This document shows, one piece after another, positions 9,896 through 57,656 of a stretch of 64,000 nucleotides of DNA. The notes beneath the pieces were generated by a model. That model did not search any database and was not told the origin of the DNA. It saw only the letters and a program-made list of their open reading frames with translations. The position numbers and the translations under genes were made by a program. Origin of the DNA: Actinomycetota bacterium (GTDB taxonomy: Bacteria; Actinomycetota; Thermoleophilia; BMS3ABIN01); NCBI GenBank assembly GCA_016235065.1, contig JACRMB010000001.1, positions 62,001 through 126,000 on the forward strand, written 5' to 3'. The first letter of the stretch is position 1. Every line of letters starts with the position of its first letter.

Positions 9896-11011
9896 TTATG
9901 TCCTGCGATAGCCGCGGCCAGTTTCGAGCCGCGCCAGCCCCTTCAGTTCCAGCGATATCAGGGCTGTCACAGTGCTGGAGCCGTCAAGGCCGGCCTTTGA
10001 CGCCAACAGATCAGGATGGCGCGGCAGAGCTTCGAGTTCCCTGAACAGCCGCTGCTCATCATCGCTGAGCCCGGACGGTATTCCGGCCGGGCTGCCGGAA
10101 TCACCGAGCGGCAGGCTCTGCTGGGAAAGCTCCAGGCCCAGACTCTCGAGCACCTCCTCGGCGCTGGTCACGGCTGCGGCGCCGTTTCTGAGAAGTGAGT
10201 GAGGGCCGGTCGAGAGCTTTGAGAATATGCTGCCCGGCACCGCGAACACCTCGCGGCCTTCTTCGAGCGCGAAATCAGCGGTTATCAGGGAGCCGCTTTT
10301 TTTAGCGCCCGCCTCGACGACTATTACCGCGCTGGCGAGGCCGGCCATTATCCGGTTCCGCGCCGGAAAACGCCAGGGCATGGGCTGGGTCCTCGGCGGG
10401 TATTCGGAGACGATCAGACCGCGTTCCAGAAGCGAGGAGTGAAGGCCGCGATTCGCCGCCGGGTAAACTACATCAGGCCCACAGCCAAGCACAGCCAGAC
10501 TTCGACCTTTGTAGTCGAGGGAACCGGTATGAGCTGCGGCGTCGATCCCCAGAGCCATGCCGCTGATCACACAGACGCCATGGGCGGAGAGGCCGCGGGC
10601 GATGATCGTAGACGCGTCAAGACCGTAGCGCGATGCGGAACGGGCGCCGACGATGGCGACGCAGGGTTGCTCCGAAAGTTCAGCGAGAGGCGTTGCGCCC
10701 TTCATAAAGAGAGCCGGTGGCGGGTCGTGTATCTGGGCGAGGCAGCAAGGGTAATCGGGCTCGCCCAGCGTGACGATGCGGGTTCCTTCCCTTTCGAGCT
10801 GCTCGAGCATTTCAGGCGCTGAGAACCTCGACCTGAATTCCGCCAGCTGGGGGAGGTTCTTTTCCGGAAGCCTGAGCAGACTGGCCAGCAAAGGGTCCGG
10901 GCAGTTCCAGAGCCGGGAGAGGCTCATCTTCCTGGTGGGGACTCGCAGGGGCCAGTTGTATTCCGCGAGGAAGCAGGTGAGGGCGAGGGCGGCGTTTCGC
11001 TCAGTTTCCAT
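9896..11011 (-). CDS. dprA: DNA-processing protein DprA
   Basis: 371 residues from the ATG at 11009-11011, which is preceded by GGAAGGGGTGGG and overlaps the 3' end of comM by 11 nt. The Rossmann core shows VAIVGARSASRYG, VISGMALGIDAAAHTG, LAVLGCGPDVVYP, PARNRIMAGLASAVIVVEA, KKSGSLITADFALEEGREVFAVPG and a C-terminal winged-helix-like region. DprA loads RecA on incoming single strands during transformation. A longer in-frame extension into comM is spurious. Confidence 0.93.
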   Translation of the reverse strand: METERNAALALTCFLAEYNWPLRVPTRKMSLSRLWNCPDPLLASLLRLPEKNLPQLAEFRSRFSAPEMLEQLEREGTRIVTLGEPDYPCCLAQIHDPPPALFMKGATPLAELSEQPCVAIVGARSASRYGLDASTIIARGLSAHGVCVISGMALGIDAAAHTGSLDYKGRSLAVLGCGPDVVYPAANRGLHSSLLERGLIVSEYPPRTQPMPWRFPARNRIMAGLASAVIVVEAGAKKSGSLITADFALEEGREVFAVPGSIFSKLSTGPHSLLRNGAAAVTSAEEVLESLGLELSQQSLPLGDSGSPAGIPSGLSDDEQRLFRELEALPRHPDLLASKAGLDGSSTVTALISLELKGLARLETGRGYRRT

Positions 11012-12551
11012 CCCACCCCTTCCGGTCGATGCTGCGGTAGCTGATGGCCTCGGCCAGGTGCGCCGGGCCGATGTTGGTGGCGCCATCCAGGTCCGCAATC
11101 GTGCGTGATACCTTGAGGATGCGGTGATGGGCGCGGGCGCTGAGGCCAAGGCGGTCGATGGCGGCGCCCAACAGCTCTGCGGCGGCTGCATCCAGGCGGC
11201 ATAGCTTCTCAGCCTGGGCGGAACTCATCCGGGCGTTGCAGAAGACGCCTTCGGTATCAGAGTTCTCCGACAGGCGGGCAGCCTGCCGTTCGCGAGCGGC
11301 GCTCACCCTGGCAGCGATCGCAGCTGATGATTCGCGCCTGCCTGCCGATACCATCTGCTTCCTGCTAAGACCAGGGACCTCAACCGCTACGTCGATCCGG
11401 TCCATGAGCGGGCCGCTGACACGCCCCCTGTAAGCGGCGACGCGATGGGGCAGACAGATGCACTGCTGGCGGGTATCTCCCAGATGGCCGCAGGGACAGG
11501 GATTCATCGCCGCCACCAGCATGAAGCTGGCGGGATAGGTCACTCGCGCGAGCGCGCGGGAGATGGCGACCCGGCCATCCTCCATCGGCTGGCGAAGTGT
11601 CTCCAGGGCCATCCGTGAGAATTCAGGGAGCTCATCGAGGAAGAGGACGCCCAGGTGGGAAAGGCTGACCTCGCCGGGCTGAGGCGTCCCCCCTCCCCCG
11701 GTCAACCCGATGTGCGAGATCGTGTGATGGGGCGAACGGAATGGACGGGTCGTGACCAGCGGTCGGCCGTCGCGAAGCAGCCCGGCGACGCTGTAGATGC
11801 GGGTGACCTCGATGGCTTCGCGGATGTCCAGCGGCGGCAGGATCGATGGCAGGCGGCGGGCTAGCATGGTCTTGCCGGAACCGGGCGGACCCATCATCAG
11901 CAGGTTGTGGCCTCCGGCGGCGCAGACCTCGAGCGCCCGGCGCGCCTGCTCCTGGCCTTTGACGTCAGCCAGGTCGAGCCGGCTGGCGGCGCCTTTTGAG
12001 AGCAGAGATATGGTGTCTACGGTCGTGGGAGCGATCGCAGTCTCATCATGAAGGAATTCCACCGCCTGCGTGAGGGTCTCGATAGCGATGACCTCGATCC
12101 CATCGACCAGGGCCGCCTCGGTGGCGTTAGCTGCGGGAAGGAGGACTCCCTTGTGCCCCATACGCGAGGCGCCTTCAGCAATGGAAAGGGCGCCGTTGAT
12201 CTGGCGCACGGTCCCGTCGAGGGATAGCTCGCCGGCTGCGCTATATTCCGCTAGCCTGCCTGACTTAAGCTGTTCCGAGGCTGCAAGCAGAGACAGGGCG
12301 ATGGGAAGGTCGAAGGCAGGGCCGGCTTTGCGGACATCCGCGGGGGCAAGGTTCACCGTGATCCGCCGCAGGGGGAAATCGTAACCGGAATTGGCCATGC
12401 CGGCGCGGACCCGCTCCCTTGATTCACGGACAGCGGCGTCGGGAAGCCCAACGATGCTGAATGCGGGAAGGCCCCATCCGAGATCGGTCTCCACTTCCAC
12501 CGGGTGGGCGTCCATACCTATGACCGCGTGGCTGTGCAACCTGGCAAGCAT
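11001..12551 (-). CDS. comM: ComM/YifB-family Mg-chelatase-like AAA+ ATPase
   Basis: 516 residues: an N-terminal Lon-protease-like domain (LPAFSIVGLPDAAVRESRER, NLAPADVRKAGPAFDLPIAL), then an AAA+ module with Walker A GPPGSGKT, Walker B LGVLFLDELPEF and a C-terminal Mg-chelatase domain (SARAHHRILKVSRTIADLDG). A Cys cluster (NPCPCGHLGDTRQQCICLP) is also typical. ComM is a branch-migration helicase in transformation. The ATG at 12551 lies 8 nt after AGGAG; upstream ATG and GTG are too close to that site. It is coupled to dprA. Confidence 0.93.
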   Translation of the reverse strand: MLARLHSHAVIGMDAHPVEVETDLGWGLPAFSIVGLPDAAVRESRERVRAGMANSGYDFPLRRITVNLAPADVRKAGPAFDLPIALSLLAASEQLKSGRLAEYSAAGELSLDGTVRQINGALSIAEGASRMGHKGVLLPAANATEAALVDGIEVIAIETLTQAVEFLHDETAIAPTTVDTISLLSKGAASRLDLADVKGQEQARRALEVCAAGGHNLLMMGPPGSGKTMLARRLPSILPPLDIREAIEVTRIYSVAGLLRDGRPLVTTRPFRSPHHTISHIGLTGGGGTPQPGEVSLSHLGVLFLDELPEFSRMALETLRQPMEDGRVAISRALARVTYPASFMLVAAMNPCPCGHLGDTRQQCICLPHRVAAYRGRVSGPLMDRIDVAVEVPGLSRKQMVSAGRRESSAAIAARVSAARERQAARLSENSDTEGVFCNARMSSAQAEKLCRLDAAAAELLGAAIDRLGLSARAHHRILKVSRTIADLDGATNIGPAHLAEAISYRSIDRKGWDGN

Positions 12552-12647
12552 TTGCATCACTCCTTTTAGGGGAGCATGCTTCCGCCGCGGGGCAGGTCAG
12601 GGTGGGAGCGCCAGATTATCAGAAGGCTTGCGGGATGGCAAAGAAAT

Positions 12648-12676
12648 GGGAGGCGCGACCGCAGGTCGCGCCTCCC
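12648..12676 (-). terminator. Strong hairpin after the RiPP-like peptide gene
   Basis: GGGAGGCGCGACC and GGTCGCGCCTCCC form a perfect 13-bp stem with a 3 nt loop. On the minus strand it is followed by ATTTCTTT, so it probably ends the peptide transcript before comM. Confidence 0.7.
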
Positions 12677-12727
12677 ATAAACTGACAACAATATTCTGTT
12701 TATTTTACTGAATTCGTATCTAAGCTA

Positions 12728-12850
12728 CTAAGCCGGTGGCGGCGGCACTACGACACTGCACTGCCACTCAGGGCACTCAAAGGTGATATCGCGCAGGTTC
12801 TGCACCTTTTTTAAAGCCGGCTTCTCGTAAGTCTTTTTAATCGATTCCAT
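12728..12850 (-). CDS. 40-residue peptide resembling a RiPP precursor
   Basis: The peptide starts MESIKKTYEKPALKKVQNLR and continues DITFECPEWQCSVVVPPPPA. The first half matches the YxxPxLxxx(G)xxxxxT leader motif recognised by RRE domains in lasso-peptide and related pathways (Y8, P11, L13, T23; Gln replaces the usual Gly at 17). The second half is a short Cys-containing core, CPEWQC, followed by a Val/Pro tail. Translation is well supported: GAAGGAGG lies 11 nt before the ATG, and a 13-bp hairpin ends the transcript. It stands alone between yraN (92 nt upstream) and comM. No RRE protein, radical-SAM maturase, cyclase or protease is adjacent. A lasso ring is unlikely because no Asp/Glu falls at core position 7-9. 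Confidence 0.65.
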   Translation of the reverse strand: MESIKKTYEKPALKKVQNLRDITFECPEWQCSVVVPPPPA

Positions 12851-12942
12851 ATTGGTTCTAGCCTCCTTCTGTTCGTCCGAGAGTCTATCATATTTTTATT
12901 TAAGGAAAATCCGTCGCCGCGCCTGACCCAAATTCGCTGCGC

Positions 12943-13401
12943 TCATCTGAACGCGTCTTTCATGTGTACGATGCCAGAATCGCATTTTCCTTCTCCACGG
13001 CTCTCATTCGAGAACGTTCCCATCTCAGCTTCTCGCCCCGAGAGATAGATAGAGATCACATCAAACCGGAACTCACATTGACGCAACTCCGGATCTCCCT
13101 GATTCGCAGCCACCCACATGGACGCCATCCGCCTTATCTGATTCTGCTTTCGAGGCCCCACTGCTTCAAAGCGTTCCCCGTGATGGCGTCCTAGCCTGGA
13201 TTTGACTTCGATGAACGCGAGGGTCCTTCCCTTGCGGGCGATTATGTCGATCTCACCATATCGGCTTCGATGATTGGTCTCGACGATCTCGTAGCCGCTC
13301 TGTTCGAGGAAACGGCAGGCAAGCACTTCGCCAGCCCTGCCGCGGCTATGACGGAGGTCATTCATGGAGCGCCCAGCTCCGACTTCGCGGCCCTGGCTCA
13401 C
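12943..13401 (-). CDS. yraN: YraN / UPF0102 nuclease-fold protein
   Basis: 152 residues from a GTG that overlaps the rnhB stop codon by 4 nt (GTGA). An alternative ATG at 13365 has GGAG 11 nt upstream. The UPF0102 core is RGRAGEVLACRFLEQSGYEIVETNHRSRYGEIDIIARKGRTLAFIEVKSR, with the GEIDIIA...FIEVKSR catalytic-type motif of the PD-(D/E)xK fold. Its biological role is unsettled; it is usually linked to rnhB and comM as here. Confidence 0.88.
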   Translation of the reverse strand: MSQGREVGAGRSMNDLRHSRGRAGEVLACRFLEQSGYEIVETNHRSRYGEIDIIARKGRTLAFIEVKSRLGRHHGERFEAVGPRKQNQIRRMASMWVAANQGDPELRQCEFRFDVISIYLSGREAEMGTFSNESRGEGKCDSGIVHMKDAFR

Positions 13402-54866: not shown

Positions 54867-57656
54867 TTAGGGATATGAGTAAGTCGAGCCAGCGCCGTCC
54901 ATCGCGCTCGCTGTCATCGTCGAGCGCCAGCTGCCGATGCCAGCCGGAACCTGGTACCTGAACGTCAGAGTCGCCGATGAACCCGCGGCAATGTCGCCCG
55001 CCGATGCAGGCAGCTGAGTCAGAAGGCTGACCCCGTTATTGTTGTCATTACCAGTGATGCTGACCGAGTGGCCGACGATCGTACCCGTGTTGCGGATCGT
55101 CCAGTCGACCGAGAGCGTCCGCGCCTGATAGTCGGCATATGATCCCCAGAAGGGAACCGGTGCGCTCAGCTTCAGCGACGGTTTGCCGATCTGCGCGGGA
55201 TCGACAGGCTCCTGCGTAGCCCAACCGCTCTCCACCGTCCAGGGCAGGCTGTCCTGGAAACCGTACTGCGCGTACGCCGCGTCGCAGAATGAATCGCCGT
55301 TGCCGTTACTGCAGCCCTCTCCTGGAACATCAAAATCGCTCCAGTAATTACCGCCGGCAGGCGCCGCCTGGTTGAAGCTGTTGCCACTGCCGCCGGAGCT
55401 GTAAGCCTGGGTGGTGTTGCCAAGGAAATTGTTGTTGAAGATGCTGTTGCCACTCGAGCCTGACAGGTACAGGCCATACTTGTTCCCGGAGAGCGTGTTT
55501 CCGGAGATCGAATTGCTGGACGACGCCAGCAGATAGATACCGTAACCGAAATTGACGATCGTGAGATTCCTGATTGTGACACCCGACTTGAGTGACATGG
55601 AACCGCCGGTAGTGAAGGCGTCGGCTCCGGTGATCGTGTGGCCGTTGCCGTCGAGGGTGATGCCGTTATCGGCGATCTCGATGCCATTTCGGTTGAAATT
55701 GAGATCCATGGTCAGCGTACAGGTCTTGCTGTACTGGTCCCAGGCACCGATGGCCGTGCAGTCGCCGCCGGTAGCGTTATCCCTGATGTAACGCGTCGGT
55801 GATATGGGCGGCGTGCTGGTATCGACCGTGAAGGAGCCGGCGCCGCTGCCCTGATTGCCCGCCTGGTCGCTAGCCCTGACCATGATCGCATGATTGCCGT
55901 TGGCAAGTCCGCTCACCGGGCAGCTGGTACCCACCGACGTGACGGTGCAGCCGGATAACCGGGCGCTGTCCAGATAGACCGCGACTGTAGCTGTATCTAC
56001 TCCCGAACCGGAACCATCTGAGTAATTGGCGCTGACAGTGGTCGAGCTGACATTGATGGTGCCTGACGGCAGGATACCGCTCACCACTGGAGCGGTGGAA
56101 TCCACGAAAATGAACGATCCGGTTATCGGGCTGCTGTTGCCGGCGATATCGGCCACGGAACCGCCGATCGTGTGGGTGCCGGTTGCCAGACTGGAGACCG
56201 GACAGCTTACCCCGATCGGGCTTTTCGTACAGCCGGCTAGCAGAGCGCCATCCAGATAGACGTTCACCGATGCGAGGCTCACGCCGCTGCCAGAATCTGA
56301 ATAATTGGCCGAGACTGTCAGGGAACTGGTGCTGACAGTACCAGACGGAAGAACGGCGCTCACAACCGGGGCAGTCTTATCAACCAGGAACGAACCAGTG
56401 CCGGACCCATGATTGCCGGCGTTGTCATCGACCGAGACGTCGAGGGAGTGGCTGCCGTCTGCCAAGCCGGATACAGGGCAGCTGACACCTGAAGATGTTG
56501 CCGTGCAACCGGCGACTCTGGCGCCATCAAGATAAACTGCCGCTGTCGAGCTATCGGGCCCTGAGCCGGAGCCATCGCTGAACAGGGCGCTTACAGTAGC
56601 AGATCCGCTGCTTACCGTACCCGAAGGCTGGATATGGTAGACAATCGGCGACACCAGGTCTGAGAAGTTGAAAGCCCCGCTGATCGGGCTGGTGTTGCCA
56701 CGGTTATCCGATACCGAGCCGCTGATCGTGTGGGCGCCCAGGGCAAGTCCGGAAACCGGGCAGGCTGCGCTTTCCTGGGTGATGGTGCAACCGGTCATGG
56801 CGCTCCCGTCCAGATATACATAGACAGAAGCCAGGTTGATATTGCTTCCCGGATCCTGGTAGTAAACCTTCACAGTCGCCGAATTGCTGTCTATGTTGCC
56901 AGACGGCAACACGCTGAGAATCTCAGGAGGCGTCGTGTCGGGAGGATGGACGGCATTCCAGCCATCCTGTGAAGTGTAGGGCTGGCTGTCCTGGCCGCCG
57001 CTGAATGTAAATGCCGCATCACAGAAAAAGTCGCCGTTGTTATCGCTGCATCCCTGCGCCGGCGTGCTGAAGTTGTTCCAGAAATTGCCGCCAGAACCAG
57101 GCAGGCTGAAAAGGTTGCCGCTACCGCCCAGGACGAATGCCTGGGTCGTGTTGTTGATGAAGTTGTTGTTATAGATGCGGCCATTGACCGAAGCGATTGC
57201 GTAGATACCGTAAGTGTTGTTCTCGAGGGTGTTGCCGGTTATGGTGCTTCCGGTGGAGGAAAGGATGTTGATCCCGTAGTTGAACTGCCTGATCGTGAGG
57301 TTCTTGATGGTGATCCCGGTACGGGCTGAAAAGGCGCCGCCGCTGGTGTAACCGCCGGAATCGGTGATGGAGTGGCCGTTGCCGTCAACAGTGATGTTGT
57401 TGTCGACGATCTCGATCCCGTTCTTGCCGGTGACGACCAGGTCGGTATTGAGCGTACAGGTGAGTGTGGCGGGATCCCAGGCGCCGATGGTTGTACAGTC
57501 GCCACCAGTGGCACTGTTGCGGATGATCTTTGCGGATGCCGCATTAGCCGGCTCAGGGAAAACGGCCAGAATCAGTGCGACAGAAAATATCAGCGCGAAA
57601 ACAGAAAGGTTTGGCCAGACCCTCCTGTCCGCCCAGACAGGATAAAACTCCCTCAT
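54867..57656 (-). CDS. Large secreted protein: two NosD-like beta-helices flanking Ig-like repeats
   Basis: 929 residues with a signal peptide (SVFALIFSVALILAVFPEPANA). Order: beta-helix 1 (about 40-205; GIEIVDNNITVDGNGHSI, GITIKNLTIRQFNYGINI, NTLENNTYGIYAI), four Ig-like repeats of about 95 residues (240-640), each with a GC...CPVSGLA-G-H cysteine pair, beta-helix 2 (650-785) closely similar to the first, and a CARDB-like C-terminal domain. After each helix is a Ca-site-like loop: CSDNNGDFFCDA and CSNGNGDSFCDA. No sortase or membrane anchor is visible, so it may be released or wall-associated. Likely a surface or carbohydrate-interacting protein; function unknown. Confidence 0.82.
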   Translation of the reverse strand: MREFYPVWADRRVWPNLSVFALIFSVALILAVFPEPANAASAKIIRNSATGGDCTTIGAWDPATLTCTLNTDLVVTGKNGIEIVDNNITVDGNGHSITDSGGYTSGGAFSARTGITIKNLTIRQFNYGINILSSTGSTITGNTLENNTYGIYAIASVNGRIYNNNFINNTTQAFVLGGSGNLFSLPGSGGNFWNNFSTPAQGCSDNNGDFFCDAAFTFSGGQDSQPYTSQDGWNAVHPPDTTPPEILSVLPSGNIDSNSATVKVYYQDPGSNINLASVYVYLDGSAMTGCTITQESAACPVSGLALGAHTISGSVSDNRGNTSPISGAFNFSDLVSPIVYHIQPSGTVSSGSATVSALFSDGSGSGPDSSTAAVYLDGARVAGCTATSSGVSCPVSGLADGSHSLDVSVDDNAGNHGSGTGSFLVDKTAPVVSAVLPSGTVSTSSLTVSANYSDSGSGVSLASVNVYLDGALLAGCTKSPIGVSCPVSSLATGTHTIGGSVADIAGNSSPITGSFIFVDSTAPVVSGILPSGTINVSSTTVSANYSDGSGSGVDTATVAVYLDSARLSGCTVTSVGTSCPVSGLANGNHAIMVRASDQAGNQGSGAGSFTVDTSTPPISPTRYIRDNATGGDCTAIGAWDQYSKTCTLTMDLNFNRNGIEIADNGITLDGNGHTITGADAFTTGGSMSLKSGVTIRNLTIVNFGYGIYLLASSSNSISGNTLSGNKYGLYLSGSSGNSIFNNNFLGNTTQAYSSGGSGNSFNQAAPAGGNYWSDFDVPGEGCSNGNGDSFCDAAYAQYGFQDSLPWTVESGWATQEPVDPAQIGKPSLKLSAPVPFWGSYADYQARTLSVDWTIRNTGTIVGHSVSITGNDNNNGVSLLTQLPASAGDIAAGSSATLTFRYQVPAGIGSWRSTMTASAMDGAGSTYSYP

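Follow-up and report, generated by a model that had tools for sequence, protein, structure and literature searches.

A 40-residue gene in the window, the 64,000-nucleotide stretch of actinobacterial DNA analysed here, raises the question of whether so small a product is a modified peptide and, if so, which genes mature it and what it works with. The gene lies between a ComM-like gene (11001-12560, minus strand) and a YraN-like gene (ending at 12943, minus strand). A sequence-only reading had described an orphan gene at this place, between yraN and comM, with a strong ribosome binding site and its own hairpin terminator. Location and signals are as described: an ATG-initiated frame, an AGGAGG motif 11 nt before the start codon and a 15-bp hairpin. 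The features are the following.

12728 to 12850, minus strand: precursor peptide gene, 40 aa, class 1, the copy at the comM site (ORF translation, paralogues, family homologues and codon conservation)
12779 to 12850, minus strand: predicted leader, residues 1-24, with Y8-x-x-P11-x-L13 and T23 (invariant Y8, P11 and T23 in 56 coding variants, and the lasso register)
12731 to 12778, minus strand: predicted 16-residue core, ECPEWQCSVVVPPPPA (sequence and conservation)
12862 to 12867, minus strand: Shine-Dalgarno-like AGGAGG (sequence; SD-like sequences precede 54 of the 56 peptide copies)
12646 to 12678, minus strand: terminator-like hairpin with a T-rich tail (sequence and RNA fold; similar hairpins lie behind 44 of the 56 copies)

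The peptide and its family

The product of the gene is MESIKKTYEKPALKKVQNLRDITFECPEWQCSVVVPPPPA. The hairpin behind it has a GC-rich stem and a short T-rich tail, its stretch folds at -36.8 kcal/mol (z -4.8), and there is no second terminator-like site between 12500 and 13100. No Pfam or NCBIfam model scores above its cut-off on the 40-aa peptide, the faint hint being DUF5972 at E 0.05.

The term orphan does not apply. Eight close copies, the window copy included, and three remote ones are found in the genome (2.37 Mb, 10 contigs), which gives 11 in all; the seven paralogues match the window peptide at E 2e-16 to 3e-13. Homologues were found in all 19 sampled family genomes, at 4-12 matches per genome, and in none of 280 other genomes of the same class at E 1e-4. 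Among public genomes, the relatives are MAGs filed under Thermoleophilia, Gaiellales, Actinobacteria or Actinomycetes, together with Bacterium BMS3Abin01. BMS3ABIN01 is an order of Actinobacteriota (PMC9948709), and the literature on this lineage amounts to a single passing mention. Judged by sequence comparison, the short peptides are a multi-copy family confined to one lineage of uncultured actinobacteria.

Across 56 distinct coding blocks of class 1, the leader residues Y8, P11 and T23 are invariant, as are C26, W29, C31, S32, V33, V35 and P36 of the core. Pairwise differences over these blocks are 0.145, 0.134 and 0.408 at codon positions 1, 2 and 3. The high value at third positions, 41% as opposed to 13-15% at the first two, marks the peptide as being under purifying selection. 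This codon pattern, together with the paralogues and the homologues in every family genome, rules out a chance ORF.

The remote copies constitute a second class of precursor, in which the class-1 leader is followed mostly by a W-x-C-S core motif and by a hypervariable tail rich in Asp, His, Gly or Ser. The first Cys is absent in most class-2 cores, and in several of these precursors predicted core position 3 is Ser. Their genes are scattered, without adjoining maturation genes (class-2 loci are L220-L239, L014:7216-7467 and L015:7507-7689). A conserved leader with a variable core had been expected of homologues. The leader is indeed conserved; the core is near-invariant in class 1, and the variability lies in the class-2 tails.

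An HprK-PqqD-B2 locus elsewhere in the genome

The sequence-only reading had recognised an RRE-type leader pattern and, finding no maturation gene nearby, had proposed either modification in trans or a peptide that works unmodified. The genome supports the leader type and the placing of maturation genes elsewhere. It encodes a single PqqD-like RRE and a single B2 that score above the family cut-offs, adjoining each other behind an HprK-like kinase gene, at a locus unlinked to the peptide genes. The gene order HprK-PqqD-B2 is kept in most family genomes, usually with a DUF2079 membrane protein next; in G010, about 20 kb separates the RRE from B2. The B2 protein scores above the NCBIfam lasso_biosyn_B2 cut-off, retains the catalytic Cys and His, and has no match in the PDB by sequence.

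The RRE is nearest to the NCBIfam lasso PqqD models, yet below their cut-offs, and resembles the TbiB1, PbaB1 and LppB chains; it is 68-89% identical to its family orthologues. Its residues N37 and D74, invariant in 16/16 aligned RREs, align with N33 and D70 of LppB, which fix the binding of Tyr-type leaders (PMC13381572), and also with the PbaB1 chain. The RRE profile finds 17/19 family genomes (13/13 of the high-quality ones) at E<1e-47 and, outside the family, one genome weakly (1e-14). As evidence against its proposal, the earlier reading had named a lack of homologues, or uniform conservation without an RRE pathway. Homologues occur in 19/19 family genomes, and class 1 is uniformly conserved, but an RRE is present in 17 of the 19.

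In the operon neighbourhoods, no transporter or exporter and no other peptidase recurs around the RRE operon, and no macrolactam cyclase is among the recurrent neighbours of the RRE locus or of the peptide genes. An NTP transferase (NTP_transf_5) lies near the operon in just 4 loci.

The main peptide cluster contains a second HprK-like gene, preceded by a lipoprotein gene (L009:9563-10120, plus strand, and homologues). The lipoprotein has a low-complexity linker and then a conserved end, G-W-(x)-x-G-x-I-x-I-x-V-P-x-x-P, which resembles W-Q-C-S-V-x-V-P-x-x-P of the peptide; the likeness is short, with V-x-V-P-x-x-P as the common tail. This tail pattern occurs in 10/660 ORF ends, nine of which belong to this lipoprotein.

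The C-terminal domain of paired secreted proteins

The gene directly upstream of the peptide encodes a secreted protein with a common C-terminal domain (CTD) in 42 of the 50 distinct peptide loci whose upstream sequence was long enough, a figure that describes peptides and not CTD genes, since the loci were fetched via the peptide; a minority of CTD members have a peptide gene. The upstream CTD gene ends 32-113 nt before the Tyr codon of the peptide gene. The domain comprises ~110 residues with the pattern W-A-S-Y-A-D-Y ... Y-x-Y-P. The own genome contains 39 CTD profile matches in ~35 proteins, nearly all at the C-terminus. A CTD-like domain near the protein start, with a propeller-like part after it, was seen at L033 and L051.

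The CTD is present in 19/19 family genomes, with one match elsewhere. That match (G104:C202:9022-9351) comes from a genome 76% complete with 5% contamination and possibly lies on a foreign contig. Among 191 high-quality genomes, peptide, RRE and CTD are all present in 13 and all absent in 178, a co-occurrence which, being confined to one clade, may go back to a single event in evolution regardless of the number of genomes.

Six of the eight close copies in the own genome stand behind a CTD gene; the two that do not include the window copy. The window copy was considered as a fixed partner of comM and this was rejected: a peptide copy is found at comM in 3/16 family genomes whose comM match is long and has sequence available on its upstream side, and in G017 a CTD gene precedes that copy. 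In several genomes (L010:7563-7868, L025, L069, L087) a second peptide site without a CTD gene adjoins hemC, as well as a TIGR00725-like gene where one was seen. Elsewhere in the window lies an unpaired CTD protein, secreted and with Ig-like repeats before the domain.

54870 to 55196, minus strand: CTD of the secreted 929-aa protein (ORF 54867-57656, minus strand), from a CTD profile match; no peptide gene downstream

The CTD falls below the cut-off of every Pfam and NCBIfam model and has weak likeness to CARDB and DUF11. Its AlphaFold model is a seven-strand Ig-like fold (mean pLDDT 96) with a short helix at S-Y-A-D-Y. A sequence search of the PDB returned nothing, and Foldseek gave no match to the model at E<0.001. 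VIA-align related the model at Z 8-10 to the Ig-like domains of adaptin ear/GAE, COPI appendage and TRAP-beta; this likeness is one of common fold and implies no function. Several domains of these types bind short aromatic peptides. Complementation of the CTD by a donor strand from the peptide appears less likely, as the seven-strand model looks complete. Nor could the peptide-paired CTDs be accepted as one clade: they cluster in the whole set, but this is confounded by orthologues, and within the own genome the clustering is not clear (26/500 shuffles as low).

Shared C-terminal domains of secreted proteins are familiar from the T9SS CTD, PEP-CTERM and CARDB/DUF11-like Ig domains. The present CTD resembles them in that one C-terminal domain is found across many unrelated secreted proteins per genome, and differs in that it pairs with RRE-leader peptide genes, is lineage-restricted and is without a library model at cut-off. 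The cargo of peptide-paired proteins includes EB_dh (L013, L031, L032, L040) and rhodanese (L011, L049), and at L012 a C_GCAxxG_C_C protein adjoins the paired locus; other paired proteins are propeller-like or phosphatase-like. Unpaired CTD proteins carry, among others, glycosidase, lipase, PD40 and beta-helix types.

Close association with CTD genes, and a class-1 leader and core that are uniformly conserved, are what would be expected of a small protein that is left unmodified and binds either the CTD or some partner at the surface, with the RRE-like leader as a fortuitous N-terminal stretch. This is nevertheless unlikely: the leader is also kept in class-2 peptides with unrelated tails, the same genomes encode B2 and a Tyr-type RRE (N37/D74) whose strong profile matches are found only there, and the peptide has no signal peptide for export. 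The nature of the cargo suggests another role, that of a peptide-derived cofactor whose C-P-x-W-Q-C pair would provide the paired secreted enzymes with redox or metal chemistry. Redox or sulfur modules are frequent at paired CTD loci, and both Cys and the Trp are invariant in class 1. But the propeller- and phosphatase-like partners do not suit this role, the part common to paired proteins is the CTD and not the catalytic part, and most class-2 cores are without the first Cys, so that such a cofactor seems quite improbable.

Relatives of the system and a proposed pathway

Phosphorylated lasso peptides (paeninodin, Bsf; PMC10368454) share with this system an RRE B1, a B2 peptidase, an HprK-type kinase, the Tyr/Pro/Leu leader and a Thr at predicted position -2. 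The lasso leader register has YxxPxL at -17 to -12 and Thr at -2 (PMC10368454), and the placing of T23 at -2, the penultimate leader position, depends on the predicted cleavage site. The differences are that here no cyclase is linked, the ring acceptor is absent, the precursors are scattered and the core is invariant. Core positions 7-9 are C-S-V in all 56 variants, with no Asp or Glu acceptor, in keeping with the earlier argument against a lasso ring. The system falls outside the lasso peptides because both the ring acceptor and a linked cyclase are absent.

A true lasso peptide with its ring closed by an Asn-synthetase-like cyclase encoded elsewhere would suit the lasso-type RRE, B2 and HprK, and the own genome does contain three full-length Asn-synthase homologues. 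Two of the three begin CGI, as in ordinary glutamine-dependent AsnB, and all three lie away from the RRE locus and from every peptide copy; with Asp/Glu at core 7-9 in 0/56 class-1 variants, this explanation is very improbable. At L126 (G000:C9:1-19000), two adjoining Asn-synthase homologues were observed near radical-SAM-like genes, the second of which begins VSGIAGIF, without the usual N-terminal Cys. It is hardly credible that the gene acts in cis on the CTD operons, as a regulatory peptide or mRNA element whose product is unimportant, for although the short gene lies directly downstream of CTD genes and has its own hairpin, conservation is strong at the amino-acid level alongside synonymous change, and some copies, such as that in the window, are away from CTD genes.

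The nearest relative in kind, going by the RRE, the HprK and the absent cyclase, is the recently described linear polyphosphorylated peptides (LPPs) of Popov et al. 2026 (PMC13381572). Both systems have a discrete RRE with an Asn/Asp pair for Tyr-type leaders, an HprK-like kinase and no macrolactam cyclase, and in both the leader is YxxPx[V/L] with equal Tyr-to-Thr spacing. Further, most peptide copies share with LPPs a His eight residues past the Tyr (the window copy has V), some family genomes have an NTP transferase nearby, and the class-2 tails recall LPP precursors, whose leaders are conserved and C termini variable (PMC13381572). The peptidase differs, being a B2 cysteine type here and the SpI-like serine leader peptidase LppS in LPPs; LPP clusters also carry an MsbA-like pump (PMC13381572), and none adjoins the RRE locus here. 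In addition, the many scattered precursors of the present system appear to be matured in trans, its class-1 core is invariant and paired with CTD proteins, and it occurs in Actinobacteriota, whereas LPPs were reported as restricted to Bacillota (PMC13381572). The system cannot be counted among the LPPs because its peptidase is B2; the claim made is that it probably operates in LPP fashion, using a lasso-type peptidase. The earlier suggestion of an undescribed system is supported.

The best reading, which we consider probable, is a cyclase-free, lasso- and LPP-like phospho-RiPP pathway that acts in trans and whose invariant product works with CTD surface proteins. The genes point to leader removal and phosphorylation, with a disulfide as a possible addition. 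The discrete PqqD-like RRE would bind the leader via Y8, P11 and L13, and the HprK-like kinase would phosphorylate the core, most likely at Ser32 (12755-12757) within the invariant W-x-C-S. The B2 cysteine peptidase is predicted to cut after F24, removing residues 1-24 and leaving the linear 16-mer E-C-P-x-W-Q-C-S-V-x-V-P-P-P-P-A, in which a C26-C31 disulfide may form. Ser32 is the sole universal hydroxyl residue in the class-1 core; as the phosphosite it is a guess, because the phosphorylated residue in the LPP and Bsf systems is Ser3 (PMC13381572, PMC10368454) and most class-1 cores have Pro there, with Ser in a minority of copies only. The product would be exported and act at the cell surface with the secreted CTD proteins, and the lipoprotein with the V-x-V-P-x-x-P tail may be a competitor for the same binding element or may itself present it. 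A more specific and only tentative version is that the invariant product of the HprK/RRE/B2 machine is a phosphopeptide which binds or caps the lineage-specific CTD of the ~35 secreted proteins per genome, the lipoprotein of the same tail being its membrane-side counterpart.

The usual interpretation of short RRE-dependent peptides is that of secreted antibiotics or signals whose cores vary. Here, an invariant core, up to a dozen copies per genome, fixation in the lineage and the tie to the CTD suggest a housekeeping or surface role. The work newly defines a C-terminal domain without a name in the searched libraries and a second class of precursor, and the family offers a natural setting for testing the open function of linear phospho-RiPPs. 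If the more specific version is true, a RiPP maturation pathway would have been recruited into a cell-surface protein system.
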